Assembly: GCF_023115465.1 (NCBI RefSeq)
Contig: NZ_CP096034.1
Span: forward strand, 2,604,001 to 2,668,000
Reading direction: 5' to 3'
Length of the DNA stretch: 64,000 bases
From: Gottfriedia acidiceleris
Lineage (GTDB): Bacteria > Bacillota > Bacilli > Bacillales > Bacillaceae_G
Positions 4,171 through 37,996 of this stretch are shown here, in pieces (positions within the stretch are counted from its first letter, which is position 1; the number at the start of each line of letters is the position of its first letter). The notes beneath the pieces were generated by a model that searched no databases, was not told the DNA's origin, and saw nothing but the letters and a program-made list of their open reading frames with translations. A program made the position numbers and the translations under genes.

Positions 4171-4216
4171 AAAGAGCGACTCATTAGTCTAAGCACTCAC
4201 TGAGATCGCTCTTTTT
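4171..4216. terminator. Bidirectional terminator between brnQ and the lactate-oxidase-like gene
   Basis: AAAGAGCGA with inner CTCA pairs with TGAG-ATCGCTCTTTTT. T runs are present on both strands, so it can end both convergent genes. Confidence 0.85.
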
Positions 4217-4221
4217 AATTT

Positions 4222-5394
4222 TTAAAAATGTTTACTAAGGTTTTCTTTTACCAACAAAGATGGCTTTAATTCACTGATACTTTTTTGTCCGGATAAAGCC
4301 ATCGTTAAATCAAAATCAGCTAAAATATTTTTCATTACTTGGACTACCCCGTTTTTACCAGCAAGAGCTAGGCCATACATATACGGTCGACCAATTAAAA
4401 CTGCATCAGCACCGATTGCTAATGCTTTATATACATCTGATCCTCTTCTAATACCACTATCCATTAAAATTGGTAATCTACCTTTTAATTCACTACAAAT
4501 ACTCTCTAATGCATCTAAAGTACTAATCGTTCCATCAACCTGTCTTCCACCATGATTCGAAACGATAATGCCATCCATACCATATTCAAGAGCAAGCATT
4601 GCATCATCCTTATGTAAAATTCCCTTTAATAAAATAGGTAATTTAGTTTGATTTCGCAAAAATGCTAAATCCTCCCATGTTAATGCAGGATTGCCAAAGA
4701 GTCTTGTCCATAATAGAATTGCTGACTGTGGATCTTCTTCAGGTGATTTATTTAATCGTGAGCGAAATACAGGATCCTCTAAATAGTTACCAATCCCTTG
4801 GCCTTGTAAAAATGGTAAATATGCATTTTCAATATCTTTTTCTCTCCAACCCATAATCGAGGTATCAAGCGTAATAACAATCGCTTCGTAGCCATTTGCT
4901 TCAGCACGTTTAATCATACTTGCTGCAATTTCCATATCACTACTACAATATAATTGATACCATTTTGGAGAATTTCCTAGAACAGTTGAAACCTTTTCTA
5001 ATGAGTAAGTCGATGCAGTGCTAGTAATGTATGGAATATTCAATTCTGCAGCTGCTCGAGCAGCTTCAAGTTCCCCTTCTGGATGTGCAATCGACTGGAC
5101 ACCGATTGGAGCAAATAAAATCGGCGAGTTATATGTTTTGCCAAATAAATTTATACTAATATCACGCTCAGCCACATTACGTAACATTCGCGGTACAATT
5201 TTCCACTTATCAAATGCTAATCTATTTTCAATCATCGAGCGCTCACTACCAGCGCCCCCAGCTATATAATAAAAAGGTCCTTCCTCTAATTGATCTTGTG
5301 CTAACTTTTCTAAATCCTCAAATCTAACAGGAATCTCACTTTTTTTTCCACCACTATACACTTGCAATTGAATATAATTTCCGAAATTCTTCAT
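4222..5394 (-). CDS. FMN-dependent alpha-hydroxy-acid oxidizing protein (lactate oxidase/monooxygenase-like)
   Basis: TIM-barrel flavoprotein of the FMN-dependent alpha-hydroxy-acid dehydrogenase family. Visible family marks are YYIAGGAGSE, the FMN-contacting lysine in LLKGIL, the catalytic histidine/arginine in SNHGGRQVDG, and DSGIRRGSDVYKALAIGADAV followed by GRPYMYGLA. The protein is soluble, about 390 residues, like lactate oxidase and lactate 2-monooxygenase. The exact product (pyruvate plus H2O2, or acetate) cannot be told. A TTG at 5412 opens a longer frame, but AAGGA lies just upstream of the ATG at 5394, which is preferred. A consensus cre site lies immediately upstream, so catabolite control by CcpA is likely. 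Confidence 0.87.
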   Translation of the reverse strand: MKNFGNYIQLQVYSGGKKSEIPVRFEDLEKLAQDQLEEGPFYYIAGGAGSERSMIENRLAFDKWKIVPRMLRNVAERDISINLFGKTYNSPILFAPIGVQSIAHPEGELEAARAAAELNIPYITSTASTYSLEKVSTVLGNSPKWYQLYCSSDMEIAASMIKRAEANGYEAIVITLDTSIMGWREKDIENAYLPFLQGQGIGNYLEDPVFRSRLNKSPEEDPQSAILLWTRLFGNPALTWEDLAFLRNQTKLPILLKGILHKDDAMLALEYGMDGIIVSNHGGRQVDGTISTLDALESICSELKGRLPILMDSGIRRGSDVYKALAIGADAVLIGRPYMYGLALAGKNGVVQVMKNILADFDLTMALSGQKSISELKPSLLVKENLSKHF

Positions 5395-5416
5395 TCGAAA
5401 CACATCCTTCAAAAAA

Positions 5417-5431
5417 ATGTAACCGTTTACA
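5417..5431. promoter_or_regulatory. Catabolite-responsive element (cre) for CcpA
   Basis: The 15-mer ATGTAACCGTTTACA fits the Bacillus cre consensus WTGNAANCGNWNNCW at every position. It lies about 25 bp upstream of the chosen ATG of the lactate-oxidase-like gene, just outside its ribosome binding site. A position this close suits repression by promoter overlap or roadblock. Confidence 0.75.
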
Positions 5432-5647
5432 TATTCTAATTCATTTCAACTAACTCCTCTATTTTTCTTAATAAATCATTCGACATTTTGAATATTTATA
5501 AGATTCTTTATACCGTCAAGTACTTACTTTTATATTAAAAAATTTTTTTTGAATTATATTACTCTATTTTTATTGTTCTGATAAAAAAATGAATTTTCTT
5601 ACTTTATATTGATTAAATATGTTCTTAAATACTGTAATAGAGTGTAC

Positions 5648-5732
5648 AAATAAGTAAGATACCCTTTTTATTGGTAATGGTTGATTTAAAGTAGTATAAA
5701 TCGATTAACCAATTTTATTGCCTACTTATTTA
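5648..5732. repeat. Long imperfect inverted repeat upstream of guaD
   Basis: The left arm (about 5648-5688: AAATAAGTA ... TTGGTAATGGTTGATTTA) is mirrored by the right arm (about 5697-5732: TAAATCGATTAACCAA ... TACTTATTT) around a short loop. Transcribed, it would give an ~85-nt hairpin with bulges. It sits ~70 bp before guaD in a gene-free stretch of ~370 bp. It could be a structured leader, a degraded miniature element or a protein-binding site; no known riboswitch was recognised. Confidence 0.5.
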
Positions 5733-5799
5733 TATTAATTTAAGAGATTAGATAAATGGAAAAACCTTTCGCCCTTATTACTATAAAGGTGGTGTTAGT

Positions 5800-6276
5800 T
5801 TGAATCACTCTGATTGGATTAAATTAAGTGTAAGACTTGCTTATGAAAATTTATTAAATAAGAATGGTGGGCCATTTGGGGCAGTTGTTGTCCAAAATGG
5901 AAAAGTAATTGGTGCCGGTGTAAATGGTGTCACTACTTTAAATGATCCAACTGCACATGCAGAGGTTCAAGCAATTCGAAACGCATGTCAAAATTTAGGT
6001 ACATATTTATTAAAAGATGCCGTCTTATATACTAGCTGTGAACCATGCCCAATGTGTCTAAGTGCCGCCTATTGGTCTAGAATATCAAAAATATATTATT
6101 TTTTTACAAAAGATGATGCTGCAAAAATTGGATTTGATGATGCACATATTTATGATGAACTTTCATTGCCTTATGAAGATCGAACGATCCCTAGTGAACA
6201 AATTATGATTAAGGTCAAAGATATTGAAAACCCTTTCATTGTTTGGTCAAAAGATGAAAGTCATGTACATTATTAA
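5800..6276 (+). CDS. guaD: Guanine deaminase
   Basis: Zinc-dependent cytidine-deaminase-fold enzyme that hydrolyses guanine to xanthine in purine salvage. Zinc ligand His53 and catalytic Glu55 are in TAHAEV, and the ligands Cys83 and Cys86 are in SCEPCPMC. Length (158 residues) and the C-terminal region (FDDAHIYDE..., ERTIP-like segment) follow Bacillus GuaD rather than the tRNA deaminase TadA. The start is a TTG preceded by AAAGGTGGTG. It appears monocistronic, with a long inverted repeat in its upstream region. Confidence 0.9.
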   Translation: MNHSDWIKLSVRLAYENLLNKNGGPFGAVVVQNGKVIGAGVNGVTTLNDPTAHAEVQAIRNACQNLGTYLLKDAVLYTSCEPCPMCLSAAYWSRISKIYYFFTKDDAAKIGFDDAHIYDELSLPYEDRTIPSEQIMIKVKDIENPFIVWSKDESHVHY

Positions 6277-6286
6277 ACAGTATAGA

Positions 6287-6319
6287 AAAGGTTGCTCATT
6301 AATAATAATGGGCAACCTT
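6287..6319. terminator. Bidirectional terminator between guaD and the YkvA-like gene
   Basis: The near-perfect stem AGGTTGCtCATTA / TAATGgGCAACCT lies between two convergent genes and is followed by TTATTTTAATTTT on the plus strand. Confidence 0.8.
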
Positions 6320-6340
6320 ATTTTAATTTTGATTGATATT

Positions 6341-6799
6341 TTAATCTTTTAGCTCATGATCTTGCTCTATCTCTTCAATTTCCACTAAATTTGTTGAATC
6401 ATCTTTTTCGATATTATTTTCTTTCCAAATTTTATACTTTTCAATATCTTTGTTAATTTGTTTAAATGTATACGCTAAAATCGTTGCATCATCTAAAAAG
6501 CCTAAGCCTACGATAAAATCTGGTATTGCGTCGATTGGACTGACAAAATAAATTAATGCTCCGATTACTGTCAAAATTGATTTTGTAGAAATATCTCTAT
6601 AACTGCCATTAATATATGATTTAAATAGATCGATAAATAAATTTACTTTTCCCCAAGCTTCACCTAACGCGCCTTTTTTATCCGGTGCGAGCTGAGCTGC
6701 TTTTTTCAATAAATTCGTTGATTTTTCTTTATTTCCTAAATAGGAAGAAGCTTTCTTTAAATACTTTTTAAAAAACTTATTATCATTTAACTCGGACAT
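6341..6799 (-). CDS. YkvA family (DUF1232) protein
   Basis: 152 residues. The middle contains the DUF1232 signature: a hydrophobic segment (ILTVIGALIYFVSPIDAIPD) running into FIVGLGFLDDATILAYTFKQI. Charged N- and C-terminal tails flank it, the C-terminus being very acidic. The family is widespread and of unknown function; one membrane-associated hairpin is likely. A strong AGGAG-type site precedes the ATG. Confidence 0.8.
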   Translation of the reverse strand: MSELNDNKFFKKYLKKASSYLGNKEKSTNLLKKAAQLAPDKKGALGEAWGKVNLFIDLFKSYINGSYRDISTKSILTVIGALIYFVSPIDAIPDFIVGLGFLDDATILAYTFKQINKDIEKYKIWKENNIEKDDSTNLVEIEEIEQDHELKD

Positions 6800-6857
6800 T
6801 TTTTCTCCTCCCTTTTTTATAGTTTAACAAATATAAAAACAAGATGAAAGTACGAAA

Positions 6858-6883
6858 AACCACTAATCAATTGATTAGTGGTT
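6858..6883 (-). terminator. Terminator of the ABC-F gene
   Basis: A perfect 26-bp palindrome (half: AACCACTAATCAA) lies just past the stop of the ABC-F gene. On the minus strand it is followed by TTTTTCG. Confidence 0.7.
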
Positions 6884-6919
6884 TAACTTCTATCCTGTGA
6901 ATGGCCTTTGTATGTGGAA

Positions 6920-8542
6920 TTACTTATTATATAACTCTTCTACTTGCTTTTGTAAATCCTTGTTCTCTAAGAACTCATCATAAGTACACTCTTTATCAAC
7001 TAAACCGTTTGGTGTTACTTCAATGATACGGTTTGCAATAGTTTGAATGAACTGATGGTCATGAGAAGTAAATAATGCAGTACCTTTGAAGGCAATTAAA
7101 CCATTATTTAATGCCGTAATTGACTCTAAGTCTAAGTGGTTAGTAGGATCATCTAATACTAATACGTTTGCTCCACTTAACATCATTTTTGAAAGCATAC
7201 AACGAACTTTTTCTCCCCCAGAAAGAACAGAAGCTTTTTTCATTACTTCCTCTCCTGAGAATAGCATACGTCCTAAGAAACCACGTAAGAAGCTCTCAGA
7301 CTCATCTTGTGGAGAGAACTGACGTAACCATTCGATTAAGTTCATGTCACTATTTTCAAAGAACTCAGAGTTATCTTTAGGGAAAAATGCTTGAGAAGTT
7401 GTTACACCCCATTTAAATGAACCAGTATCCGGCTCCATTTCACCCATTAAAATTTTAAATAAAGTTGAAATTGCAACGTCATTTTTACCTACAAACGCAA
7501 TTTTATCGCCTTTGTTTACAGTAAAACGTACATTATCTAGTACTTTTTCACCATCGATTGTTTTTGAAATTCCATCTACAGTTAATAAATCATTTCCAAC
7601 TTCCCTCTCTGGCGTAAATCCAACGAATGGATAACGACGAGAAGATGGTCTAATATCATCAAGCGTAATTTTATCTAAAAGTTTTTTACGTGAAGTAGCT
7701 TGTTTTGCTTTTGAAGCATTTGAGCTAAATCGAGCAATAAATCCTTGTAGTTCTTTAATTTTCTCTTCTTTTTTCTTATTAGCATCAGACATTAATTTTT
7801 GAGCTAATTGACTTGATTCATACCAGAAATCATAGTTACCAACATAAAGTTGAATTTTACCAAAATCTAAATCTGCCATATGTGTACAAACTTGATTTAA
7901 GAAGTGACGGTCATGTGATACAACGATAACTGTGTTTTCAAAGTTAATTAAGAAGTTTTCTAACCATTGAACAGCTTTAAGATCTAAGTTGTTCGTAGGC
8001 TCATCTAGTAAAAGAATATCTGGTTGACCAAATAGTGCTTGAGCAAGTAGTACTTTTACTTTCTCACCAGCTTGTAATTCAGCCATTTTTTTATAATGTA
8101 AGTCTTCTGTAATACCAAGACCTTTTAATAAAATCGCAGCTTCTGATTCTGCTTCCCAACCATTTAACTCTGCAAACTCACCTTCAAGTTCTGCAGCTTT
8201 CATGCCATCTTCTTCAGTAAAATCTTCCTTCATATAGATTGCATCTTTTTCTTTCATTACTTCATAAAGACGAGTATGACCCATAATAACTGTTTGAAGA
8301 ACTTCAAACTCTTCATATTCAAACTGATTTTGTTTTAATACTGCAAGGCGCTCACCTGGCGTTACAATAACATCACCTGTAGACGGCTCGATTTCACCAG
8401 ATAAAATTTTAATAAAAGTAGATTTACCCGCACCATTAGCACCAATTAAACCGTAACAGTTACCTGGTGTAAATTTTATATTAACATCATCAAATAATTT
8501 TCTGTCCGCAAAACGCAAACTAACATTGCTTACTGTAATCAT
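6920..8542 (-). CDS. ykpA: ABC-F family ribosome-associated ATPase (YkpA/YbiT type)
   Basis: Two ABC cassettes in one soluble chain without membrane segments, joined by a basic linker (SNASKAKQATSRKKLLDKITL) that in ABC-F proteins reaches the ribosomal tRNA site. First cassette: Walker A GANGAGKST, Walker B LLLDEPTNNLDL, with a degenerate signature LQAGEKVKV. Second cassette: Walker A region GKNDVAIST, which lacks the usual GKT/S core, signature LSGGEKVRC, and Walker B LVLDDPTNHLDL, where Asp replaces the catalytic Glu. The 540-residue length and overall sequence match Bacillus YkpA. The role is inferred as translation factor or ribosome rescue rather than transport. It is monocistronic. Confidence 0.88.
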   Translation of the reverse strand: MITVSNVSLRFADRKLFDDVNIKFTPGNCYGLIGANGAGKSTFIKILSGEIEPSTGDVIVTPGERLAVLKQNQFEYEEFEVLQTVIMGHTRLYEVMKEKDAIYMKEDFTEEDGMKAAELEGEFAELNGWEAESEAAILLKGLGITEDLHYKKMAELQAGEKVKVLLAQALFGQPDILLLDEPTNNLDLKAVQWLENFLINFENTVIVVSHDRHFLNQVCTHMADLDFGKIQLYVGNYDFWYESSQLAQKLMSDANKKKEEKIKELQGFIARFSSNASKAKQATSRKKLLDKITLDDIRPSSRRYPFVGFTPEREVGNDLLTVDGISKTIDGEKVLDNVRFTVNKGDKIAFVGKNDVAISTLFKILMGEMEPDTGSFKWGVTTSQAFFPKDNSEFFENSDMNLIEWLRQFSPQDESESFLRGFLGRMLFSGEEVMKKASVLSGGEKVRCMLSKMMLSGANVLVLDDPTNHLDLESITALNNGLIAFKGTALFTSHDHQFIQTIANRIIEVTPNGLVDKECTYDEFLENKDLQKQVEELYNK

Positions 8543-23127: not shown

Positions 23128-24840
23128 TTAAGCAGCAATTGATTTATTATTGTTTTTAATTCTTGTTCCAACGAACAACCAAATGACAAATAGTAATAAA
23201 ATTAGTTGTGGAATGATACTTTCTAGGGAAGGATAAATCCCTAATTTAGGTATTGTTGGAAAAATAGTGCTCATATGGTCAGGCAAATAGCCAATTCCTT
23301 GTAATGCATGAATACTTTGACCAATGAATTTAAACGTCAAGTAATAAATACATAAACTTGCGATTGTAAAAAACGGCTTTAAAGGAATAAATTTGCTTCC
23401 TTTTAAGATGAAGATTCCAATTATAACAAGTAAAATGATCCCACCTGAAAAACCAGCAATCAATTCTTTCGCTGTAATTGAAGAACTCATACCGATATAA
23501 AACACGACCGTTTCGGCGCCTTCTCTAAATACTGCAAAAAATGAAAGTAAACTTAATGAAAGAATTCCTCCGCCTGCAATAGCTGCTTTTGCTTTTTCTT
23601 TCATCTTGCTACCATATTCTTGTTGACGAGATTGTTTATGCAACCATAACCCAACTGTTAACATGAAAACAACCGCAATAAGACCAGAGATCCCTTCAAT
23701 TAATTGATTACTAATTCCGGCTGAGATTTTTGATAATAAAAACTGGAATAATAAACCGGCTACTAAACTAGCTACTATACCAAAAGCACCACCAACGAAG
23801 ATCCACTTACGTGCTGATTCTTGTTTACCTTTTGACACTAATGCTAGTAAAGCGGAAATAATAATTAAAGCCTCTAAACCTTCACGGAATACAATTGTCC
23901 CTGCATCAAACGTCGTATAGGATGTTTTCTTCGTAGCTAAGTTTAAATTGTTTTGAATTTGTTTTAATGTTTTCATCGTTGTAGCAGATTTAGGCTTTTC
24001 TGTTAACTGAGTTAATGCAATGGATGTATCATTTTCAATCTTCTTATATAATTCCATTGAATTTGCTTGAACCATTACTTCAACATAAGGCCAATCTTGT
24101 ATAAATTCATTAAAAGTAGTTTGTGCTTTTTCTGTATCATTAGATTCTACATAATTGATTGTTTGATTGAGTAGCTTGATTGCTTTTTCAATACTGACTT
24201 CTTTTGTTGTGTCACTACTTGGATTATTCAAAACATCAATTAATTTAGTAAAAGATTCATTTACTTTAGTAATTGAAGGTTTTTCAGTAAACAAAGTTGA
24301 CCTTGAAGTAATCATATTTGCTTCGATTGAACCATAAAAACCACTGTTTGCTTTTCTTATATCATTTTCTACTTTAGACCATTCAATTTCAAAAAGCTTA
24401 TACTCTGTTTGTGCTTTTTCCCAATTCGATTCATTTGATAAAGTTTTAACATTATTTAAATGAAATAATAGTTTAGTAAGATTAATTTGAGAAAGATCTT
24501 TTTTATCATTCGTATTTTCAATCCACTTTTCTGTTTCAAAAGCTATGCCGCGAATATCATCTTTTACTGTTGCAAGTTCATTTTGATCGATATCTTTAAT
24601 CGCTTGGTCAACAAGTTTAGTTAATCTTGAAGTTTTTTTCTCATTTTTAATTAATTCTTTAATCGCTAATAAATCTGTTTTTACTTTATCTTTTTCACCA
24701 TTTTTAACTTCTGTTAAAGAGTTACCAATATGTGAAAGTACTTGTTCTTGAATATCAGTTTCAGCAAATGTTTTATGAAACGGACTAAATATTAAACTAA
24801 AAAATAGTAAACTAGCTGCTAAAAGTATATTTTTTTTCAT
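23128..24840 (-). CDS. efeU: EfeU, FTR1-family ferrous iron permease
   Basis: A signal-like N-terminus and a ~290-residue extracytoplasmic domain rich in Glu and Lys precede about seven membrane helices. Both FTR1 iron motifs are present: FREGLEAL at ~321-328 and FREGAETV in the fourth helix region. In EfeUOB-type systems the permease imports iron delivered by EfeO and oxidised or released by EfeB. A GTG at 24849 opens the frame, but AGGTGA precedes the ATG at 24840, which is preferred. It is third in the efeO-efeB-efeU operon. Confidence 0.92.
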   Translation of the reverse strand: MKKNILLAASLLFFSLIFSPFHKTFAETDIQEQVLSHIGNSLTEVKNGEKDKVKTDLLAIKELIKNEKKTSRLTKLVDQAIKDIDQNELATVKDDIRGIAFETEKWIENTNDKKDLSQINLTKLLFHLNNVKTLSNESNWEKAQTEYKLFEIEWSKVENDIRKANSGFYGSIEANMITSRSTLFTEKPSITKVNESFTKLIDVLNNPSSDTTKEVSIEKAIKLLNQTINYVESNDTEKAQTTFNEFIQDWPYVEVMVQANSMELYKKIENDTSIALTQLTEKPKSATTMKTLKQIQNNLNLATKKTSYTTFDAGTIVFREGLEALIIISALLALVSKGKQESARKWIFVGGAFGIVASLVAGLLFQFLLSKISAGISNQLIEGISGLIAVVFMLTVGLWLHKQSRQQEYGSKMKEKAKAAIAGGGILSLSLLSFFAVFREGAETVVFYIGMSSSITAKELIAGFSGGIILLVIIGIFILKGSKFIPLKPFFTIASLCIYYLTFKFIGQSIHALQGIGYLPDHMSTIFPTIPKLGIYPSLESIIPQLILLLFVIWLFVGTRIKNNNKSIAA

Positions 24841-24849
24841 GTAATTCAC

Positions 24850-26100
24850 CTAAAGTAATCCTTCACCAATATAACTTCCATTCTTAACACCTGGGAAGCA
24901 TGCAAATACTGCACTACCATTATGCTCAATGTATTCGTTCAATAAATCCATTTTTGCTAATTTATCTTGTAAAGGAATAAATTGTTTTTCTAAGTCTCTT
25001 TGGAAACTAACAAATAGTAAGCCTGCATCTAATTTTCCTGTTTGGATATCAAGTCCGTCAGTATATGAATAAGATCTTCTTAATATTTTTATTTTACCTT
25101 TTCCTCTTGCTAAGGCAACATGTGAATCTGCAGGAATCAGTAATTTCCCATTATCATCTGTTTTCTTTAAATCTATTTTAGCAAATTCACTACTTTCACC
25201 AATTGGTGCACCAGATGCTCTGTGACGTCCAAATGTTTGTTCTTGATCTTGTAATGAACTACGATCCCATTCCTCAACACGAATTCGAATACGTCTAGCA
25301 ACTAGATAAGAACCACCTGTTAGCCAAGCAGGACCATCGCCATTTTGCACCCAAATATGTGTATTCATTTCTTTTTCATCTTTTGTATCTGGGTTTCCAG
25401 TACCGTCTTTAAAGCCCATTAGGTTCCTAGGTGTACTACCAGATGGATCGGCTCCAGATGAACGTTGGAATCCGTGCTGCATCCATTTTAAACTAACCGT
25501 TCCGCGTCCAATTCGAATTAAGTTTCTTACGCCATGAAACGCAACTTGTTGATCATTTGCACAAACTTGAACTACGATGTCTCCACCGTTCCATTCCTCT
25601 CTTAAATCATCACCAGGGAAATGAGGTAAATCTTTTAACCCCGATGGTTTACTTGATTGAATTGATAATCGATCAAAAAATGAAGGTCCAACTCCAAATG
25701 TAAACGTAAGCTTCATTGGTTGTAGACCTGTTGCTTCACCCGTATCAATTGGTGGTGATGAAGGAAATTCAGAATCGCCTAGTTCTTTACCTTCACTCAT
25801 TAAAGCTGCTGCTTCAGTCCATTTTTTAAACATTGTTTTGACATCTGCTTTTGAAGTAGTTTCTAGTTTAAATGACGCCAAATACATAAAATCTTGGGCA
25901 GGTGTTGTAATACCTTGTTGCTTTTTACCATAAAACGGAAGAATCTCTTTTGCATCCGCTTTAGCCGGTGAAAAGAAATTAGTTACTTTTTCAGTAGCTG
26001 CTTCAATACCAGTTGCACCAATTAGTATACCAGCTCCACCAACCCCAATAAGTTTTAATGCATCTCTTCTAGAAACTTTATTGGTTTCTAATTTTTTCAT
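24850..26100 (-). CDS. efeB: EfeB, Tat-exported Dyp-type heme peroxidase
   Basis: The twin-arginine signal is SRRDALKLIGVGG at 10-22 with a hydrophobic core. The Dyp motif GXXDG is present as GFKDGTGNP, and the heme region as FGRHRASGAPIG. In Bacillus, EfeB (YwbN) is a classic Tat substrate that oxidises ferrous iron for EfeU uptake. The ATG sits 1 nt after the efeO stop; the AGGGG ribosome binding site lies inside the end of efeO, indicating coupled translation. Confidence 0.93.
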   Translation of the reverse strand: MKKLETNKVSRRDALKLIGVGGAGILIGATGIEAATEKVTNFFSPAKADAKEILPFYGKKQQGITTPAQDFMYLASFKLETTSKADVKTMFKKWTEAAALMSEGKELGDSEFPSSPPIDTGEATGLQPMKLTFTFGVGPSFFDRLSIQSSKPSGLKDLPHFPGDDLREEWNGGDIVVQVCANDQQVAFHGVRNLIRIGRGTVSLKWMQHGFQRSSGADPSGSTPRNLMGFKDGTGNPDTKDEKEMNTHIWVQNGDGPAWLTGGSYLVARRIRIRVEEWDRSSLQDQEQTFGRHRASGAPIGESSEFAKIDLKKTDDNGKLLIPADSHVALARGKGKIKILRRSYSYTDGLDIQTGKLDAGLLFVSFQRDLEKQFIPLQDKLAKMDLLNEYIEHNGSAVFACFPGVKNGSYIGEGLL

Positions 26101-26101
26101 A

Positions 26102-26950
26102 TTATTTAACCCCTAATGTTGACCCAACTTGAGAAATCGGTTCAGCTAATGCATCTACTTGTTGAGCTAATTTTTTCACTTCATCTTCTTTTAACTGTTT
26201 GTAATCAACGTATTGATCACCTTTTTTATAAGTATTTAAAGTTGTCATTAATTCATCGAATCTAGTTTTAATTGTTGAAGCTAAATCAGCATCTTTAGCT
26301 TTTAATTTATCTGATAATAATTGCACGATTTTATCTGAACCTTCCACATTAGCTGCAAAATCAGCTAAATCAGTATGAGAATATCGTTCTTCTTCACCTG
26401 TAACCTTTGAAGATGAAACTTCATTTAATAATTCCACAGGACCTGTTACAAATAATACTGGATCAATTTCAGCTGTTTCTACTTTTGCTCTTAAGTAGTT
26501 TGCATCCTTCATAAGTTGATCTGTATATTTTTCTAGACCTTTTGTTGTATTTTGAACCCAAAGAACTTGCTCAATTTTATGAAAACCAGTCCACTCATTA
26601 GCAGGTACATCACCTTCACGTGCATCGATTTTTGGATCTAAATCACCGAATGATTCTGCTACTGGTTCAATTCTTTCGTAATATGAACGACTAATTGGAT
26701 ATAAACGTTTTGCTTCTACCATGTTTCCTGCATTAATTGCATCAACGAACCTCTGTGTATTTGATACGAACTCTTCCGTTTGAGATACAACGAAATCTCT
26801 ATAATTATTAATCTCTGAATCTAAATTTATTTTTGCTTCTACTTTTGTTTCTTTTTTTACATTACTAGCTTCTTCACTTTTTTGTGCACAACCTGCCATC
26901 ATTAAACTTGTAGCAAGAGAAATTGCGATCATAGTAGTTTGCTTCTTCAT
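26102..26950 (-). CDS. efeO: EfeO, iron-binding lipoprotein with M75 (imelysin-like) domain
   Basis: The lipoprotein signal MKKQTTMIAISLATSLMMAG runs to the lipobox Cys. The domain contains the HxxE motif (FHKIEQVLW) of imelysin/EfeO and the GDLDPKIDAREGDV region. No cupredoxin domain is present, as in other Firmicutes EfeO. A longer frame opens at 27046, but GGGGGT lies just before the ATG at 26950, which is the start giving a lipoprotein. It is the first gene of the operon, behind a Fur-box promoter. Confidence 0.92.
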   Translation of the reverse strand: MKKQTTMIAISLATSLMMAGCAQKSEEASNVKKETKVEAKINLDSEINNYRDFVVSQTEEFVSNTQRFVDAINAGNMVEAKRLYPISRSYYERIEPVAESFGDLDPKIDAREGDVPANEWTGFHKIEQVLWVQNTTKGLEKYTDQLMKDANYLRAKVETAEIDPVLFVTGPVELLNEVSSSKVTGEEERYSHTDLADFAANVEGSDKIVQLLSDKLKAKDADLASTIKTRFDELMTTLNTYKKGDQYVDYKQLKEDEVKKLAQQVDALAEPISQVGSTLGVK

Positions 26951-27017
26951 GAAAATACCCCCGAAAAATCTAAATAATATATTATGTAAGTGATATTGAT
27001 AACTTTTCTCATTACTC

Positions 27018-27046
27018 ATCATAATACAATTGATAAATATTTTCAA
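27018..27046 (-). promoter_or_regulatory. Sigma-A promoter with overlapping Fur box for efeOBU
   Basis: On the minus strand TTGAAA (27046-27041) and TATGAT (27023-27018) are separated by 17 bp. The 15-mer at 27045-27031 reads TGAAAATATTTATCA. It differs from the Bacillus Fur box TGATAATNATTATCA at only two positions and fills the gap between -35 and -10. Repression by Fur under iron sufficiency follows from this layout. Confidence 0.75.
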
Positions 27047-27765: not shown

Positions 27766-29064
27766 TTATTCAAACTTAAATAATTTTGCTAAATAAGCAT
27801 TCACAAAAATATTATTCTTATCTAATTGACTTCGAATAGTAAGAAAATTAGATAATGATGGATACGAGTGATTTAGTTTTTCTTTATTCATTGAATGCAT
27901 TTTTCCCCAATGTGGTCTGCCATTATAGCTTTGAAGAATTTCTTCTATTCTATTAAAATACTCTTGATGAGGCATTCCTTTATACATATGGATTGCGATA
28001 TAGGCTGAATCACGCATCGAAGCAGGACTTATTAAAAAATTATCTCCTTTTACAAATCGACATTCGATTGGGAAATGGACGTTAAATCGTTTATTTTTTA
28101 TTTCTTCTTGTATTTCTAACGTCGCATCATTCATATATTCAGCTGGAATACTGTATTCCATTTCGTTAAATTTTACATTTCGAGTAGTTGCAAATAATTC
28201 ATGGCTCGGTCCGACCATTCTTGTATTTGGAACACTGCTACCACTTATTCTACTAATTTGAGAACTACTTTTTGGAAAGTTTCTACTAAATTCACTTAAT
28301 AACCAAAAGGCATTATTTTCAATGGTTGCTACCTTCCATTTCTCAAATTTAAATGAATGTTTCTTCGTTCTAGTTTCATTCATTACCTTTACTTGAACAT
28401 AGTCAGAATAAGGGAATAAGTAAAACTCAAAATGTTCATTTTCTTTTTTCAAATTTAGTAAATTACTATAAACTTCATCAATCAATATTTTTTTACTCTC
28501 ATAACGATATGTTTTTGCAGGCTTTATTCTAATTTTAAATTTAACAACTATGCCAAGTAAACCTAACGACACGCCAATTGCCCTATATATATCTGTATTT
28601 TTTGTCTTTGAACAATCTAATAAATCACCTGATGGTAATACTACTGTCATCTCTTCGATTTGTGTAGATAGAATTCCGTGATTGATTCCTGTGCCGTGTG
28701 TACCCGTCAAAAATGCTCCTGCAATCGACTGAACATTAATATCACCTAAATTTTCTTGCGAATAACCTAATTCGTATAATTCATTCCCTAATTGCTCAAG
28801 CTTAGTTCCAGCCCAGACTTCAGCAATTTGTTCCTGTTTGTTGATTGAAATAATACCATTTAAATTATCTAGTGACATTAAATAGTCGTTTGTTGAAATT
28901 AGTGGAGTAAATGAGTGACTTGAACCTACTACTCTTATTTTCTTTTTTTCTGAGTTAGCTTTTTTAACGTGGTTTACAATTTCTTCAATTGAGGATGGAT
29001 ACAATACTTGATTCGGTTTAAACTTTACACTTCCAGACCAGTTTTTCCATAACATACTTTTCAT
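27766..29064 (-). CDS. FAD-linked oxidase, aldonolactone oxidase family
   Basis: 432 residues. The N-terminal PCMH-type FAD domain includes VVGSSHSFTPLISTNDYLMS and GSFxxGTHGTG-like IAGAFLTGTHGTG. The C-terminal aldonolactone-oxidase domain ends with the conserved HWGKMH motif. Relatives (L-gulonolactone, D-arabinonolactone and alditol oxidases) oxidise sugar lactones or polyols with O2. The substrate is not predictable. The ATG at 29064 overlaps the TGA of the aldolase-like gene (ATGA), with GGGGGTG upstream; the frame's earlier GTG at 29073 is less likely. Translational coupling implies a joint pathway. Confidence 0.83.
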   Translation of the reverse strand: MKSMLWKNWSGSVKFKPNQVLYPSSIEEIVNHVKKANSEKKKIRVVGSSHSFTPLISTNDYLMSLDNLNGIISINKQEQIAEVWAGTKLEQLGNELYELGYSQENLGDINVQSIAGAFLTGTHGTGINHGILSTQIEEMTVVLPSGDLLDCSKTKNTDIYRAIGVSLGLLGIVVKFKIRIKPAKTYRYESKKILIDEVYSNLLNLKKENEHFEFYLFPYSDYVQVKVMNETRTKKHSFKFEKWKVATIENNAFWLLSEFSRNFPKSSSQISRISGSSVPNTRMVGPSHELFATTRNVKFNEMEYSIPAEYMNDATLEIQEEIKNKRFNVHFPIECRFVKGDNFLISPASMRDSAYIAIHMYKGMPHQEYFNRIEEILQSYNGRPHWGKMHSMNKEKLNHSYPSLSNFLTIRSQLDKNNIFVNAYLAKLFKFE

Positions 29065-30236
29065 AGGAAGCACCCCCTATCTCCTCTGTATGTTGTGAAA
29101 CGGTCGATAATCTTATTTTTACTTACTACATACAAATGAGAAAAACGCTCAGCAATTTCACCAGACTTACTTGGTCTAAATAAAATAGCTTCTCCTATTT
29201 TTAAATCTTCATGTCCTGAATAAAAAACTGGGGTTTGAACTTCACCAGCACCTTCTAGTGGCAATAAAGTACAATGATTTGGGGAATATGGGGTCGGTAA
29301 TTTTTCTTTTCCTACAGCACCTGATGCGATAAATCCTCCACTTGTGCATGTAAAAATCTTATCCGCTGGTTTTCGAATGATTGGTAAAGCAAAGCCTATT
29401 GCTGGCTGATATTGAAAACTTCTGTATTCATCAAATAATGTTGGAGCGTAAAATCCTGAGCCTACTGTTACTTCAGTAACAACTTTCTCCTTCGTCGTCG
29501 AGTGAAGACTTCCAGTACCTCCCCCATTTACAAACTCAAGATGGTAACCATCTTTTTCAATGTATTTAACAATTTCTTTTCTTTTTTTCGCTATTTCACC
29601 TAATGATTTCTTCTTTAAAAACTGGATTATTTTATTTTTCAATACCCTATTTTTTGCATCATCACCAACCCCTGCAATTTGAGCCTCATATCCCATAATT
29701 CCTTCCAAACGCACATTCAAGGATTGCAATATATGTGTTAGTAGTGGTACTAAATCTCTAGGTTCTTTTATTGGTGACCGTCTAACTCCAAAATGAAAAC
29801 CAAAAAATGATGTACTCATGTCTATGTCGATACAAAGTGGAATAACAATCTCATTTTTTGCTGCAATCTTTTCAATAATAGTAATTTGTTCAGTCTGATC
29901 CACCATACATATGATTTTTTTACCCTTTTTTATTTGTAATGCTATTTTATTTAAACCTATTACATCAACTGTTGGATAACCAATTAATAAATTATCGAAT
30001 CCATTTTCAGCAAGAAAATCTGCTTCATGGGGGTTGTAGCACATTAGCCCTTCATAACAATCATTGCTCTCTAAAATATATTTTAAAACTTGTACACTAC
30101 GAATTGATTTTGTAGCAATTCGTATTTTCTTACCGTTTGATTTAGCGGCAATATCATCCACATTTTGAACAAAAGCATCCCAATCTAAAAAAGCACATGG
30201 CATAGACAATTTAGAAAATACCGATCGATCGACCAT
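29061..30236 (-). CDS. Amino acid deaminase/aldolase family protein (alanine racemase-fold PLP enzyme)
   Basis: 391 residues. The N-terminal alanine-racemase-type TIM barrel has its PLP lysine likely in IRIATKSIRSVQVL. Then come GYEAQIAG, FVNGGGTGSLHS, TEVTVGSGFYAP and a C-terminal D-threonine-aldolase-like domain (PIIRKPADKIFTCTSGGFIASGAVG). Related enzymes cleave or deaminate D-beta-hydroxy amino acids. It is first in a two-gene operon with the FAD-linked oxidase; the products of one may feed the other, but no pathway is known to me. Confidence 0.78.
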   Translation of the reverse strand: MVDRSVFSKLSMPCAFLDWDAFVQNVDDIAAKSNGKKIRIATKSIRSVQVLKYILESNDCYEGLMCYNPHEADFLAENGFDNLLIGYPTVDVIGLNKIALQIKKGKKIICMVDQTEQITIIEKIAAKNEIVIPLCIDIDMSTSFFGFHFGVRRSPIKEPRDLVPLLTHILQSLNVRLEGIMGYEAQIAGVGDDAKNRVLKNKIIQFLKKKSLGEIAKKRKEIVKYIEKDGYHLEFVNGGGTGSLHSTTKEKVVTEVTVGSGFYAPTLFDEYRSFQYQPAIGFALPIIRKPADKIFTCTSGGFIASGAVGKEKLPTPYSPNHCTLLPLEGAGEVQTPVFYSGHEDLKIGEAILFRPSKSGEIAERFSHLYVVSKNKIIDRFTTYRGDRGCFL

Positions 30237-33567: not shown

Positions 33568-33954
33568 ATGATCATTAATGTTCAAAGTTCTATACTATTT
33601 CTTTTTTTATTCTTCTTGCCTTATTTTGTTCTTTTACTATACATAATTGAAAATGAAATAGAGAAAAAATCAAAAGTACCCAAATTAATTATTGATGTAA
33701 CAAAAGTAAGAACTAACAATGAATTGCATACTCTATTGAAAGAAAAACTGAAATTCCCATCTTATTATAGTGAAGATTGGGACGCTTTTTGGGAGACCAT
33801 TACTGGAATCGTAGAGTTACCAAATAAAATAGAGTTTGTTGGGTGGTCAGAAATGGCGAAAAGATTACCTGAAGATTCGAAAATAATGAAAGAATGCCTG
33901 CTAGAACATAATGAGGAATTCCCTGATTGGAAATGTGAGTTCTTATTCAACTAA
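33568..33954 (+). CDS. Barstar-family protein with an N-terminal membrane anchor
   Basis: 128 residues. Residues ~6-27 form one hydrophobic helix (SSILFLFLFFLPYFVLLLYI). Residues ~39-128 match barstar: LIIDVTKVRTNNELHTLLKE, FPSYYSEDWDAFWETITGIV, PNKIEFVGW. The YYxxxWDAFWE string corresponds to the barnase-binding helix. Barstars inhibit barnase-like RNases. No RNase gene is adjacent, and the anchor is unusual for a cytoplasmic inhibitor. AAGGGG eight bases before the ATG supports this start; no other Met precedes the barstar domain. Confidence 0.8.
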   Translation: MIINVQSSILFLFLFFLPYFVLLLYIIENEIEKKSKVPKLIIDVTKVRTNNELHTLLKEKLKFPSYYSEDWDAFWETITGIVELPNKIEFVGWSEMAKRLPEDSKIMKECLLEHNEEFPDWKCEFLFN

Positions 33955-34084
33955 CACTTTGAGTTAAATGGAAATAAGTAATTCTCGTAAAGTATTAATT
34001 CTAGCATTCTTTAGTGTAAGGACATTACATAACAACCTTCCTATTAAAATATAAAAAAGAGCTACCTAATTAGAATATCCCTAA

Positions 34085-34130
34085 AAAAACACTAGCGATA
34101 CAACAGTACTGATGTATCGCTAGTGTTTTT
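34085..34130. terminator. Bidirectional terminator
   Basis: A perfect 18-bp stem, half AAAAACACTAGCGATACA, with a ten-base loop and T runs on both strands. It lies between the barstar-like gene and the convergent esterase/ATP-grasp cluster. Confidence 0.9.
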
Positions 34131-34870
34131 TATTTAAATAATTCTCCTAAATAATACGGCATTTGTTTTCGCCACCAAACCCAGTCATGTGAAACATCTT
34201 CGCCCCATTCATCAAACCATGCTTTAATTTGTTTTTCTTCAAAGGCTTCTTTTAATGTAAAGTATGAAGGCAGTCCGTCTTGTTCCCAATCACCTAGCCC
34301 GGTACAAATTATGATATCTGCTGAACGGTATCGATCTATAAACCAGCCGTCATTTTGATTCCATATGTAATCACTTGGTGAATTTTCGTATACAAGAGGA
34401 TCATTTCCGTAGTCCCCAAAAAAGAAACGCACATCGTAAACACCGCTAAGTGCAACTGTTGTTTGGAAGACATCCGGATGTCTTAGGAAAAAGTTCAATG
34501 CATGATATGCACCCATACTACAACCCGTTGTCATCATTGGTTCAAACCAACCTGTTTTATGTTTAATAAATGGAATCGCTTCTGAAATTACATAACGATC
34601 ATATGCTTCATGAGCTAATGCACGGTCATGTACAGATTTTGAGTCGTGTAGCCAACTTTCGCTATCTATGGTAGACAGAGTAAAAAACTGAATTTTTCCA
34701 GATTCAATAAAGTCATGACACACATCAATCATTCCAAAATTATTGTATTCAAAATGAGTCCCCCCAGATGAAGGAAAAACTAGAATTGGCATGCCACTGT
34801 GTCCATATCTGTTCAACAGCATTTCTCGTCCTAATTCCCCGCTCCAATGGCTTAAATGTTCTATATTCAT
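34130..34870 (-). CDS. Esterase-family alpha/beta hydrolase
   Basis: 246 residues. The nucleophile elbow is GCSMG (TTGCSMGAYHALNFFLRHP). The oxyanion region is PILVFPSSGGTHFEYNNFGM, and a late catalytic His lies in VSHDWVWWRKQMPYYL. This belongs to the putative-esterase (esterase D/YbbA-like) class that often cleaves acyl groups from sugars, siderophores or peptides. The frame extends to 34909, overlapping the ATP-grasp gene, but GGGGATT lies before the ATG at 34870 (MNIEHLSHW...), which is preferred. It is third in a cluster of esterase, ATP-grasp ligase and esterase. Confidence 0.83.
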   Translation of the reverse strand: MNIEHLSHWSGELGREMLLNRYGHSGMPILVFPSSGGTHFEYNNFGMIDVCHDFIESGKIQFFTLSTIDSESWLHDSKSVHDRALAHEAYDRYVISEAIPFIKHKTGWFEPMMTTGCSMGAYHALNFFLRHPDVFQTTVALSGVYDVRFFFGDYGNDPLVYENSPSDYIWNQNDGWFIDRYRSADIIICTGLGDWEQDGLPSYFTLKEAFEEKQIKAWFDEWGEDVSHDWVWWRKQMPYYLGELFK

Positions 34871-34887
34871 AGAAAAATCCCCTATTC

Positions 34888-36075
34888 TTATACGTTTACA
34901 ACGCTGCAATTTTTTCGTTCATGTACAAAACGAATGATTTCATCGACTTCTTCCTGCGAATCTGCATTAATCGCATAAAATTGATTTCCTTGGAGTTCCG
35001 CAAACGCATCTGGCATGCGCTTTTCAAACTTCACACGGTCGCCAAATTGTTCATAAATAGCATTGGTATCATTGCTATACTCATACGCATCACGCTGTGT
35101 AATACCGACACAATACTGGTTTTTTGCATTTGATTCCTTCAATTCGCCTCCAGTCACAATAGAAGCATATTGAGCAAATAAATCAATGGAGTACGCGAAA
35201 TTGTACATATCAATCGTGTAGCCCCCAGCTAAGCGGTTATTATATTCAAGCGCAACATAGTCGCCATCTTCTAATTTGAAAAACTCAATATGAAAAAAGC
35301 GTTCTTTCATCCCAAAAGCTTTCACAATCGCCTTCCCATAGGTTTCGAGCCTAGGATCAATTTCTTTTTGAATCACATAAGCTAAATCCAACTGACCCTT
35401 AACAAGTTCCAGAGTTGGCACATTATATGTAAAGCTTGTCTGAAAAACAATATTCCCTTTTTGATCGACTAAGCCATCAAATGTACAAAGCACGCCTCCT
35501 TCGACATATGGTTCAATGAAATACACTTGTGCTTCATCCCATACTTCTTCAAAATGGCGGACAGCCTCTTCTGAACATAATTTAAAGGTTGCAGCTGATC
35601 CAACACCATTATCCGGTTTAGCAATAACTGGCAGTCCTAATTCATCAATGGCTTTAGTTAACTCATTTTTAGTTTTAACGACTTTTCCATCTACCACAGG
35701 CACACCTGCTTTTTTAAACAGCTTTTTCATTTCCGATTTATATTTAACTTTTTTCAAGTCACTCGGTTTATTACCATATACATTAAATTGTTCACGCAAC
35801 TGCGCATCAAGTTCTAACCAGTATTCGTTATTAGATTCAATACGCTCAATCGGACCATGTTTATAAAATAAAAATGCGACAGCCCGTTTCACTTCATCTA
35901 GATCTTCTAAATTATTCACTCTATAATATTCTGTTAAAGCGTTTTGAAGTTTGGGACCTAATTGGTCATAAGGCTCTTCGCCAATACCTAATACATTAAC
36001 ACCCGCGGCTTTTAAACGATAAGCAAATGACTGGAAATTCTCTGGATAATATGGAGATATCAAAATATAATTCAT
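34888..36075 (-). CDS. ATP-grasp domain carboxylate-amine ligase
   Basis: 395 residues. An N-terminal preATP-grasp domain (MNYILISPYYPENFQSFAYR) is followed by an ATP-grasp core: KYKSEMKKLFKKAGVPV, the ATP-binding LPVIAKPDNGVGSAATFKL, and the metal-binding HIEFFKLEDGDYVALEYNNRLAGGY with E/N ligands. The ATP-grasp family joins a carboxylate to an amine via acyl-phosphate. It lies between two esterase genes: 17 bp before the start of one and ~95 bp after the other. The substrate is unknown. The layout suggests that one small molecule is built by the ligase and processed by the hydrolases. Confidence 0.85.
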   Translation of the reverse strand: MNYILISPYYPENFQSFAYRLKAAGVNVLGIGEEPYDQLGPKLQNALTEYYRVNNLEDLDEVKRAVAFLFYKHGPIERIESNNEYWLELDAQLREQFNVYGNKPSDLKKVKYKSEMKKLFKKAGVPVVDGKVVKTKNELTKAIDELGLPVIAKPDNGVGSAATFKLCSEEAVRHFEEVWDEAQVYFIEPYVEGGVLCTFDGLVDQKGNIVFQTSFTYNVPTLELVKGQLDLAYVIQKEIDPRLETYGKAIVKAFGMKERFFHIEFFKLEDGDYVALEYNNRLAGGYTIDMYNFAYSIDLFAQYASIVTGGELKESNAKNQYCVGITQRDAYEYSNDTNAIYEQFGDRVKFEKRMPDAFAELQGNQFYAINADSQEEVDEIIRFVHERKNCSVVNV

Positions 36076-36169
36076 AAAAATGCTCCTTTCAAAATATCAA
36101 AAAGTTTATTAATTACACAATTTATTTCAATTTAAAAATTAATGTAAGCTTCTTTTTAAATCAGTTCAT

Positions 36170-37000
36170 TCAAATCCATTTCTCACTTAAGAAACGTAAA
36201 CATTCTGGTAAGTGTTTTGCCCAAGCTTTTTCATCATGTACTTCATCTGCATAAATATTTAAACAAATGCTATCAATTGGAACAGAGCCTTTTATCAATT
36301 GTTTATAATACTTAAGCGAGCAATCGATATATGCCTGCTTCATATTTCCATACATAAATTGTCGATCAGTATCATCGCCTTCTTGAGTACCTACTTGAAT
36401 ATATACTCGTTGTTCAGGGTCCAACTCTTGACTACCAATATAATGATCAAATGCTTTACTTGTAATCCAATTGGCTAAAGAAAAGATACCTAAACCACCA
36501 ATTTGATCTTTATATTCAACACCCATAAAAGCAGAAATATTTCCTCCTAGCGAACTACCAATCACCGCTGTATGATATTTATCAGGTTTAGTTCGATATT
36601 GCTGATCGATAAACGGCTTTACAATTGTCATTACAAAATTAGCAAACTCCGCGCCTTTACCACCTAGCTCATAATCTTCAGGAAGTGGGCTTTCAGTAAT
36701 TTTCCAAGGCGTATATTCATTAATTCGATCTTGTCCACCGTTATCGATTCCAACAACAATCATCCTTGGTAAATCTTGGTTTTGTTTGATTGCCGGAATC
36801 ACTTTCCATGAATACCCGCTATAAGATTCACTACTATAGAAAATATTTTGACCATCATGCATATAGACAACCGGATAATTTTTATCCTTGTCTTCTTCAT
36901 AATTTTTCGGCAATAAAACACGCACGCGACGTTTTTCATTTTTATAAGACATATGTAATTGATGTGTTTCTAGTTTTAAATAAAAATAGGATTGATTCAT
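36170..37000 (-). CDS. Alpha/beta-hydrolase-fold esterase (esterase D/Fes-like)
   Basis: 276 residues. Start of the fold: RRVRVLLPKNYEEDKDKNYP and VVYMHDGQN, the usual oxyanion loop. The nucleophile elbow is GSSLGG (AVIGSSLGGNISAFMGVEY), the acid probably lies in YADEVHDEKAW, and the catalytic His is in the same string. Related to siderophore and carbohydrate esterases. No signal peptide, so cytoplasmic. It is first in the minus-strand cluster with the ATP-grasp ligase and a second esterase. Confidence 0.83.
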   Translation of the reverse strand: MNQSYFYLKLETHQLHMSYKNEKRRVRVLLPKNYEEDKDKNYPVVYMHDGQNIFYSSESYSGYSWKVIPAIKQNQDLPRMIVVGIDNGGQDRINEYTPWKITESPLPEDYELGGKGAEFANFVMTIVKPFIDQQYRTKPDKYHTAVIGSSLGGNISAFMGVEYKDQIGGLGIFSLANWITSKAFDHYIGSQELDPEQRVYIQVGTQEGDDTDRQFMYGNMKQAYIDCSLKYYKQLIKGSVPIDSICLNIYADEVHDEKAWAKHLPECLRFLSEKWI

Positions 37001-37483: not shown

Positions 37484-37996
37484 ATGATTAGAGAAGCTAC
37501 TCAAAAGGATTTAATGGACATTTTAGAGATTTATAACGATGCCATTCTAAATACAACTGCCGTTTATACATATAAACCACAAACGCATGAAAGCAGACAA
37601 ATTTGGTTTAAACAAAAGAAGGATGGAGGGTTTCCAATACTAGTCTTCGAACTTGATCAAAAAGTCGTTGGATTTGCTACATTCGGTCCTTTTCGAGCTT
37701 GGCCTGCCTATAAATATTCGATTGAGCACTCAGTTTATGTAAATAGTGAATACAGAAAAAAGGGTATTGCAACTTCATTAATGAAAGAATTAATCTCAAT
37801 TGCCAAAGAAAGAGAGTATATGACTTTAATTGCTGGAATTGATTCAGATAATGAAAAAAGTATTGCCATGCACAAAAACTTTGGATTTGTTTATTCAGGC
37901 ACAATTAAAAAGGCAGGTTATAAATTTAATAGATGGCTTGACTTGTCCTTTTATCAATTAGATCTTGATGGACCAAAGAATCCTACAGAAGAATAA
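37484..37996 (+). CDS. GNAT N-acetyltransferase, phosphinothricin acetyltransferase-like
   Basis: 170 residues with the PAT-type pattern: IREATQKDLMDILEIYNDAI, the FGPFRAWPAYKYSIEHSVYV core, acetyl-CoA loop RKKGIATSLM, and the ending NFGFVYSGTIKKAGYKFNRW. Relatives (Bacillus YwnH, bacterial Pat) acetylate phosphinothricin or methionine sulfone/sulfoximine. It has a strong GGGGGAAAG site and its own terminator. Resistance to a glutamine-synthetase inhibitor is a family inference, not shown here. Confidence 0.87.
   Translation: MIREATQKDLMDILEIYNDAILNTTAVYTYKPQTHESRQIWFKQKKDGGFPILVFELDQKVVGFATFGPFRAWPAYKYSIEHSVYVNSEYRKKGIATSLMKELISIAKEREYMTLIAGIDSDNEKSIAMHKNFGFVYSGTIKKAGYKFNRWLDLSFYQLDLDGPKNPTEE

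Follow-up and report, generated by a model that had tools for sequence, protein, structure and literature searches.

An ATP-grasp ligase-like gene inherited together with esterase-fold hydrolase genes: a candidate mobile module for a small amide metabolite

Do three adjacent genes of Gottfriedia acidiceleris, predicted to encode an ATP-grasp enzyme flanked by two esterase-fold hydrolases, belong together, and what might they make? The genes lie on the minus strand of a 64,000-nucleotide stretch of DNA, the whole of which was analysed and is here called the window. A sequence-only reading had placed an esterase, an ATP-grasp ligase and a second esterase there in a row, and this arrangement was recovered at that place, with Pfam in agreement. 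The first gene, EB (36170..37000, minus strand), is preceded by an AAAGGAG-type ribosome site and specifies an esterase-fold hydrolase of 276 aa (PF00756 Esterase; E 6.6e-23, 82.2 bits, gathering cut-off 22). The second, AG (34888..36075, minus strand), encodes an ATP-grasp carboxylate-amine ligase-like protein of 395 aa (ATP-grasp_4 / CPSase_L_D2), and the third, EA (34130..34870, minus strand), another esterase-fold hydrolase of 246 aa (PF00756 Esterase; E 3.1e-11, 44 bits, gathering cut-off 22). The ATG at 34870 is more likely to be the start of EA than the TTG at 34909, since it lies 17 bases past the AG stop with GGGGA before it, and since the matching Met opens the EA frames of three related loci (L011, L012 and L013). 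The order of all three genes is the same in 11 of the 11 loci from Gottfriedia and its kin (L003-L013), and the dN/dS of cassette genes was 0.03-0.20 where computable; the row is therefore not a product of chance, and these values indicate that EB, AG and EA are real, intact genes under purifying selection.

Nothing resembling a terminator lies in the spacer between EB and AG (94 bases; 36076..36169, minus strand). At 36092-36064 a promoter-like match overlaps the start of AG, but scanning the region gave nine such matches, fewer than in shuffled sequences (mean 18.1). The gene row had been proposed to end in a strong terminator, and folding of a 66-base stretch bore this out: an intrinsic-terminator-like hairpin with a U tract follows EA (34084..34131, minus strand), forming 19 continuous pairs, U tract included, and the stretch folds at -27.8 kcal/mol (z = -8.0 versus 200 shuffles). 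This hairpin was missing from the list produced by a simple terminator scan (loop limit 8), probably because its loop exceeds that limit. Hairpin-plus-T stretches were also noticed by eye downstream of EA in loci L029 and L031. A regulatory RNA was considered and rejected: Rfam matched the window stretch twice, both times below threshold and on the terminator hairpin. No riboswitch was found by Rfam in the cassette stretches searched (window and relative loci); the eight relative loci yielded a single tRNA and nothing else.

Co-occurrence beyond this strain was sought in 398 genomes of the host's phylum, the host's own genome being counted in. AG was present in 12 and EA in 10 of them (own genome included in both), and all 10 EA genomes were among the 12 carrying AG, the AG and EA matches lying 20-134 bp apart (Fisher p 2.7e-18, uncorrected for kinship). 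The neighbourhood check thus came out in favour of a linked set. In the host's family, presence and absence of AG and EA agreed in 18/18 genomes. Where an AG locus had no EA (same strand, within 400 bp), EA was found elsewhere in 14 of the 15 genomes tested, and in 11 of the 14 regions fetched it sat beside a further AG. No EA was seen in two AG genomes of the phylum sample (G361 and G383) or in one Geobacteraceae genome. Of the 10 phylum-sample genomes with both AG and EA, 3 had EB next to them. AG and EA are the indispensable pair, and EB a frequent but looser third member. Across 35 loci the distance matrices of AG and EA correlated (r 0.79; 2000 permutations reached at most 0.26), a correlation that may come from shared descent.

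Gene order varied among the 84 loci sampled: EB-EA-AG in 36, AG-EA in 21, EB-AG-EA in five, EA-AG-EA and EA-AG in two each, EB-AG and AG-EB in one each, and AG alone in 16. For the tree, L078, in which EA adjoins AG on the opposite strand, was scored as having EA. The earlier idea of a hydrolase on either side of AG holds for loci from Bacillaceae and a small number of others (L150, L167); streptococci mostly have EB-EA-AG, and outside streptococci the complete pair seen most often in this sample is AG-EA with no EB. Some genomes hold two AG copies, as tandem AG-AG or as AG-EA-AG. Eight other genes of the window area were followed as well: seven were found in L028 and L032 and none in L029, L030 or L031, which retain all three cassette genes. 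A divergent GNAT gene (37484-37996) was dropped as a fourth member, being syntenic in L028 and L032 and not found in the latter three loci, and the neighbourhoods read showed no third enzyme, transporter or regulator that recurs consistently. That the three genes are neighbours by chance might be argued from the differing genomic contexts and the frequent absence of EB, but the co-inheritance of AG and EA, the recurring orders and the retention of the cassette without its window neighbours leave this explanation practically no probability, and for AG and EA it is refuted. The gene families behave as one module, with EB the looser member: order and neighbours change, and the cassette stays together.

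The AG/EA core is scattered over at least six phyla, the counts outside the host's phylum being drawn from the best 80 of at least 577 matches in a scan biased to near relatives. It recurs in streptococci, gut Clostridia, Bacteroidales and Bacillaceae, and in some Thermodesulfobacteriota, Myxococcota, Chloroflexota and Pseudomonadota; EB occurs in Bacilli, some Clostridia and some Bacteroidales. When AG was searched in 25 genomes of one genus, most likely Streptococcus, 21 carried it. Three unannotated faecal records of 5-8 kb labelled 'Bacteriophage sp.' carry an AG. Viral carriage of the cassette was rejected, a search of viral contigs having found no EA relative.

What AG might do was approached through its nearest relatives. 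Its alignment (A2) comprised 48 rows, 47 loci plus the window, out of 51 loci considered; four loci whose matched stretch runs over a stop were left out, and near-identical loci never entered. K113, K153, E264, E277, N279 and R281, which we take to be the ATP, Mg (two ions) and acyl-phosphate residues, are present in 48/48 rows, and E188 in 47/48. Among solved proteins the L-amino-acid ligase RizA was the best match of a PDB profile search (E 7.4e-24), and it ranked first in Foldseek with the predicted AG model (pLDDT 92.9; E 1e-23), followed by YwfE. The claim of an ATP-grasp ligase of the amide-forming kind agrees with this kinship, and the model points to an enzyme with the ATP-grasp fold and the ATP, Mg and acyl-phosphate residues of a RizA/BacD-type L-amino-acid ligase. 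RizA and BacD/YwfE share fold and domain order with AG, the identity to RizA in the fold alignment being 18%. An AG on the carboxylase or kinase side of the fold (that of PurK and biotin carboxylases), with hydrolases acting on a carboxylated or phosphorylated product, appears improbable: such enzymes follow closely in Foldseek (query TM-scores 0.59-0.71 among the matches listed, against 0.71 for RizA) and turn up in the profile search too, but there RizA leads by ten orders of magnitude (E 7.4e-24 versus 1.8e-13), it is also first in Foldseek, and a biotin carrier was not noticed beside AG in the contexts read incidentally.

The acceptor side differs. By alignment, T81, K83 and S84 of the RizA acceptor loop correspond to N83, Y85 and W86 of AG, and S156 to V158; W86 is found in 48/48 and V158 in 46/48 AG rows, so that the acceptor pocket of AG is predicted to be unlike that of RizA. 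Pockets vary among L-amino-acid ligases, and this one would therefore exclude the specificity of RizA, not membership of the family. Phe at both K83 and S84 abolished RizA activity (PMC9321006); with this result and the differing loop, an L-amino-acid acceptor for AG is not assured. In almost all genomes seen, moreover, AG goes with EA, whereas RizA belongs to the rhizocticin cluster and BacD to the bacilysin cluster.

Both hydrolases look catalytically complete. In alignments of a chosen part of the copies (A3 for EA, 32 loci plus the window; A4 for EB, 20 plus the window), S118, E196 and H228 of EA were present in 33/33 rows and S150, E207 and H255 of EB in 21/21; a profile comparison of EA with EB matches Ser region to Ser region and His region to His region, and 33/33 EA rows match PF00756 at E 0.001. 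No signal peptide was obvious by eye in EA or EB, in keeping with the cytoplasmic location suggested earlier. The complete Ser-acid-His set, as in PF00756 esterases, makes a hydrolase role the predicted one for both, as had been proposed. The alpha/beta fold, the G-x-S-x-G elbow and the Ser-acid-His set are shared with enterochelin esterase/IroE/BES, S-formylglutathione hydrolase (FrmB) and CE1 ferulic acid esterases, and EA differs from the named PF00756 esterases in an invariant H-D-x-x-WW stretch. The window's EA had no NCBIfam match at E 0.001; the enterochelin esterase model matched 7/33 EA rows weakly (best E 1.1e-7). Catalytic Glu (33/33 EA rows) is also the acid of antigen 85, and an EA profile run against solved proteins placed the mycolyltransferase-type PS1 first (E 1.2e-7), with weak matches to Cmt1 and homoserine O-acetyltransferase (E 3e-4 to 5e-4). 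EA might accordingly be an acyltransferase that adds an acyl group to the AG product or takes one from it, in the manner of antigen 85 or homoserine acetyltransferase. This has a low probability: esterases come directly after PS1 in the same search (5vol, E 3.6e-7), Foldseek places EA nearest to ferulic acid esterases and S-formylglutathione hydrolases (top match 18% identity), and EB has Glu as well, so Glu does not single out transferases.

On balance, we lean towards the cassette being a module that is complete in itself, moves horizontally and serves one small metabolite, with AG making an amide and EA processing it. AG would spend ATP on phosphorylating a carboxylate, that of a small and probably amino-acid-like substrate, and then join this substrate to the amine of a second one through an amide (dipeptide-like) bond. 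EA would work in the cytoplasm as a Ser-His-Glu alpha/beta hydrolase on this product or an intermediate, releasing, trimming or transferring a part linked as ester, thioester or amide. EB is more distant in fold and could add another step of this sort in Bacilli and in some Clostridia and Bacteroidales. The amide chemistry is suggested by the kinship to RizA, and the shared substrate of AG and EA by their co-inheritance; what the hydrolases do, and in which direction, is likewise inferred. To our knowledge, no activity has been reported for any cassette member. Another arrangement, synthesis and removal, would have AG as a promiscuous ligase and EA (and EB) as proofreading or turnover hydrolases that destroy what AG makes, rightly or by mistake. 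That ligase and hydrolase are almost always inherited together would suit it, as would the EA copies flanking AG in L077 and L083, and a dipeptidase reported to act in this way for carnosine synthase, itself an ATP-grasp enzyme, offers a precedent (a title in the reference list of PMC6920838, reference 89). A turnover enzyme need not, however, sit within 134 bp of the ligase in 10/10 genomes with both. PF00756 enzymes of known function, besides, mostly cut esters or thioesters, not peptides, and we regard this arrangement as rather unlikely.

More tentatively, AG and EA (with or without EB) could be all that is needed to produce a small amide metabolite not described before: a ligase of the ATP-grasp type whose acceptor pocket is new would build it, and an esterase-fold enzyme dedicated to the task would complete it. 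If so, where a genome has two AG copies (AG-AG, AG-EA-AG), two units would be added one after the other. The core is nearly always together or absent, which would point to a generally useful metabolite that pathway maps may lack. With two or three soluble enzymes and no constant carrier or transporter gene seen, the cassette is small enough to be reconstructed in a laboratory strain, where mass spectrometry could be used to look for its product. No described pathway with this gene set had been known to the sequence-only reading, and literature searches aimed at such a module likewise found no description.

Cyanophycin synthetase is an ATP-grasp ligase kept beside cyanophycinase, a serine hydrolase handling its product. 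The pairing is like that of the cassette, but the hydrolase family is unrelated and the synthetase far larger; its model gave AG 38 bits (cut-off 850), over part of the ATP-grasp domain. A carboxylate-amine ligase gene also exists in a species carrying AG: spr0969 of Streptococcus pneumoniae R6, a tested L-amino-acid ligase. An Rgg/SHP pair is followed by a potential operon of 12 genes, of which spr0969 is the ninth (PMC5597970). The pneumococcal AG (L062) instead follows genes clustering with an aminotransferase-V (cysteine-desulfurase-like) gene and thiI of L038.

Roles were also sought in databases and neighbouring genes. An anti-phage defence system was rejected, the PADLOC-DB models giving 0 families for each of the three proteins at E 0.01. 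Some neighbours hinted at a cysteine or sulfur pathway: in loci of the S. mitis group an aminotransferase-V (cysteine-desulfurase-like) gene and thiI precede the cassette, a glutamate-cysteine ligase gene lies near that of L075, and a Cys/Met PLP enzyme gene follows AG in L080 and, by cluster, L092. As a general rule this was rejected, S. sanguinis (L043) having GIDA-family and E1-dehydrogenase genes before the cassette instead and many other loci sharing neither neighbour set. The likeness to IroE/BES and enterochelin esterase made a siderophore role a candidate; an unsystematic reading of neighbourhoods noticed no siderophore genes beside the cassette. For S. mitis, an esterase put in the alpha/beta superfamily is listed along with a transporter of iron chelates (PMC6722419). 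In L109, a TonB siderophore receptor gene lies about 6.5 kb from the cassette.

Three open reading frames follow one another on the minus strand at 34130-37000 of the window: EB (276 aa), AG (395 aa) and EA (246 aa, start ATG at 34870). EB and EA belong to Pfam family PF00756 (Esterase) and AG matched ATP-grasp_4 and CPSase_L_D2. The row ends in a U-tract hairpin (folding energy -27.8 kcal/mol; z = -8.0 from 200 shuffled sequences). The sequence-only reading, which had described an esterase/ATP-grasp/esterase row closed by a terminator, was correct in this observation. None of the three proteins attained an NCBIfam cut-off, and EA had no NCBIfam match at E 0.001. The genome containing the window is a single contig of 4.69 Mb.

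That same reading had called for a search for co-occurrence beyond this strain, and co-occurrence was found. An even draw of 398 genomes from the host's phylum (own genome counted) was searched with each protein. AG was present in 12 genomes (E 1e-30) and EA in 10 (E 1e-15), all ten being among the 12 with AG (Fisher p 2.7e-18, kinship uncorrected); in all ten the two matches were spaced by 20-134 bp, and in one (G109) EA was split across two frames. The two genomes with AG and no EA (G361 and G383) gave none even when a profile of EA was used (E 1e-6). EB-like proteins were detected in 16 of the 398 genomes (E 1e-10), five of them among the ten with AG and EA, and adjoined the pair in three (G000, G350 and G306). 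A search of 18 further genomes from the host's family (AG matches at E 1.1e-235 or lower; EA limit E 1e-10) found both AG and EA in the same 11 and neither in the other 7. Of the genus's 12 other genomes, G001 and G009 had no strong AG match; the complete EB-AG-EA order was kept in every one of the 11 close relatives in which the AG match was strong. What is new here is the near-obligate partnership of AG and EA in several phyla, which EB often joins as a third member.

To survey gene order, AG was sought in one genome per species (84,980 species), which produced at least 577 relatives; the best 80 loci of these plus four plasmid loci were examined, a sample rich in streptococci. EA lay within 400 bp of AG, on the same strand, in 66 of the 84 loci, EB was near AG in 43, and both were present in 41. 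The orders observed were EB-EA-AG (36), AG-EA (21), AG alone (16) and EB-AG-EA (5), followed by EA-AG-EA and EA-AG (2 each) and EB-AG and AG-EB (1 each). For the 18 loci with no same-strand EA within 400 bp, 15 whole genomes were tested for EA, leaving out L075 and L078 (EA elsewhere in the locus) and plasmid L111; EA was present in 14, at one of them (L072) 1.6 kb away on the opposite strand. Fourteen EA regions were fetched from 13 of these genomes. Since EA adjoined another AG in 11 of the 14 (with EB there too in five), an AG standing alone is in most cases a second copy; in one further region EB-EA lay no more than about 300 bases from the end of the contig, and in two, both from a Myxococcaceae genome, EA was alone.

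Some loci departed from these orders. L167 bears EB-AG-EA-AG (3201-7287), one EA between two different AG genes, hinting at two ligation steps, and in L168 and L169 EB is close to the pair on the opposite strand. L166 has a tandem AG-AG; an EA-sized gap (about 4560-5330) separates EB from the two AG genes, with no EA frame at E 1e-6, and EA may be interrupted there. One genome of Abiotrophia defectiva (L034 and L068) carries two partial cassettes at separate places, one being EB-AG and the other AG-EA. In a Geobacteraceae locus (L085, 231-3322) AG and EB adjoin a carbon-nitrogen hydrolase, with no EA match in the genome. The Massilia plasmid locus L111 (4869-8170) bears a divergent AG with no adjacent EA, downstream of a class-III aminotransferase gene and a methyltransferase gene; the same type of ligase may serve another pathway there.

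When 60 AG proteins were placed on a tree and the 19 rows labelled 'no adjacent EA' were mapped onto it, this label needed 12 changes (16.5 in shuffles); well-supported branches forced 10 of the 12. The state therefore arose many times and is partly clustered. The taxa include Bacillota, Bacteroidota, Thermodesulfobacteriota, Myxococcota and Chloroflexota, with Pseudomonadota represented via plasmid records. AG was present in 21 of 25 genomes of one genus, most likely Streptococcus judging by likeness to named loci. AG relatives are also encoded by three faecal records of 5-8 kb, unannotated and titled 'Bacteriophage sp.' (MT838712, MT836893 and MT838107), which may represent bacterial DNA or cargo carried by phages.

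The AG of the window is 92% identical to that of G. acidiceleris DSM 18954, 89-94% to those of Bacillus sp. (n = 2) and Paenibacillus sp. (n = 1) loci and 81% to that of Oceanobacillus neutriphilus, which makes a Gottfriedia the most likely host. At two relatives' loci (L028 and L032) seven of eight other window genes were shared (GNAT, sigma factor, helicase and others; barstar was missing). At L029, L030 (which stops at a contig end) and L031 none of the eight was found, yet EB, AG and EA were kept, so the three genes look like a mobile unit. Pairwise comparison of 13 loci with the window rendered dN/dS values of 0.03-0.12 for EA and 0.08-0.16 for AG (12 loci each, a thirteenth lacking an equal-length frame in either case) and 0.11-0.20 for EB (12 loci, the thirteenth saturated), a sign of purifying selection. 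Catalytic residues K113, K153, E264, E277, N279 and R281 of AG (48/48 aligned rows), S118, E196 and H228 of EA (33/33) and S150, E207 and H255 of EB (21/21) were invariant, counts in which broken copies are invisible because the rows were picked from full-length matches.

The AG model (mean pLDDT 92.9) had the L-amino-acid ligase RizA as its first Foldseek match (E 1e-23), followed by YwfE, another such ligase. PurK and biotin carboxylases came close behind, and a carboxylase-like AG is possible; with a profile of 48 AG rows, RizA matched at E 7.4e-24 and the next match at 1.8e-13. In a study of RizA (PMC9321006), T81, K83 and S84 are mutated positions in the pocket for the C-terminal substrate, and Phe at both K83 and S84 abolished activity. 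These align with N83, Y85 and W86 of AG (N83 in 47/48 rows; position 85 Y in 36, H in 10 and F in 2; W86 in 48/48). AG thus has the ligase core in common with RizA and differs from it in the acceptor loop.

EA and EB are distantly related to each other: their Ser regions can be aligned, and so can their C-terminal His regions. In the EA model (pLDDT 95.8) the Ser lies at a strand-helix elbow, E196 past strand 185-190 and H228 ahead of the last helix; its best listed fold matches (11-19% identity) include ferulic acid esterases and S-formylglutathione hydrolases, and EB resembles the CE1/IroE/BES group. Proofreading or turnover by the hydrolases is possible, as is acyl transfer by EA. Amide chemistry for AG, suggested by its kinship to RizA, and a compound common to AG and EA, suggested by their co-inheritance, are most likely: AG would activate a small carboxylate with ATP and join it to an amine, EA would work on that compound or an intermediate, and EB would add an extra step in some lineages. 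The small-molecule pathway proposed in the sequence-only reading is plausible.

Cassette neighbours vary by lineage (contexts read, some genes checked by Pfam) and offered no hint of function. Searched against Rfam, the window stretch and eight related loci showed no riboswitch, PADLOC gave no match, and no description of such a module was found in the titles and abstract openings of the open-licence papers listed. Near the cassette, on the plus strand, are a barstar-family frame (33568-33954; Pfam E 6.2e-15), the longest version of which has a hydrophobic N-terminal stretch, and a GNAT acetyltransferase gene (37484-37996) whose closest models, arsinothricin/phosphinothricin acetyltransferase, scored under cut-offs; the latter is syntenic in L028 and L032 and was not found in L029-L031. 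On the minus strand, an overlapping pair (27766-30236) encodes an alanine-racemase-N-like protein and then a D-arabinono-1,4-lactone-oxidase-like flavoprotein, and consecutive imelysin, Dyp-type peroxidase and FTR1 genes (23128-27046) have the make-up of an Efe-type iron uptake system.
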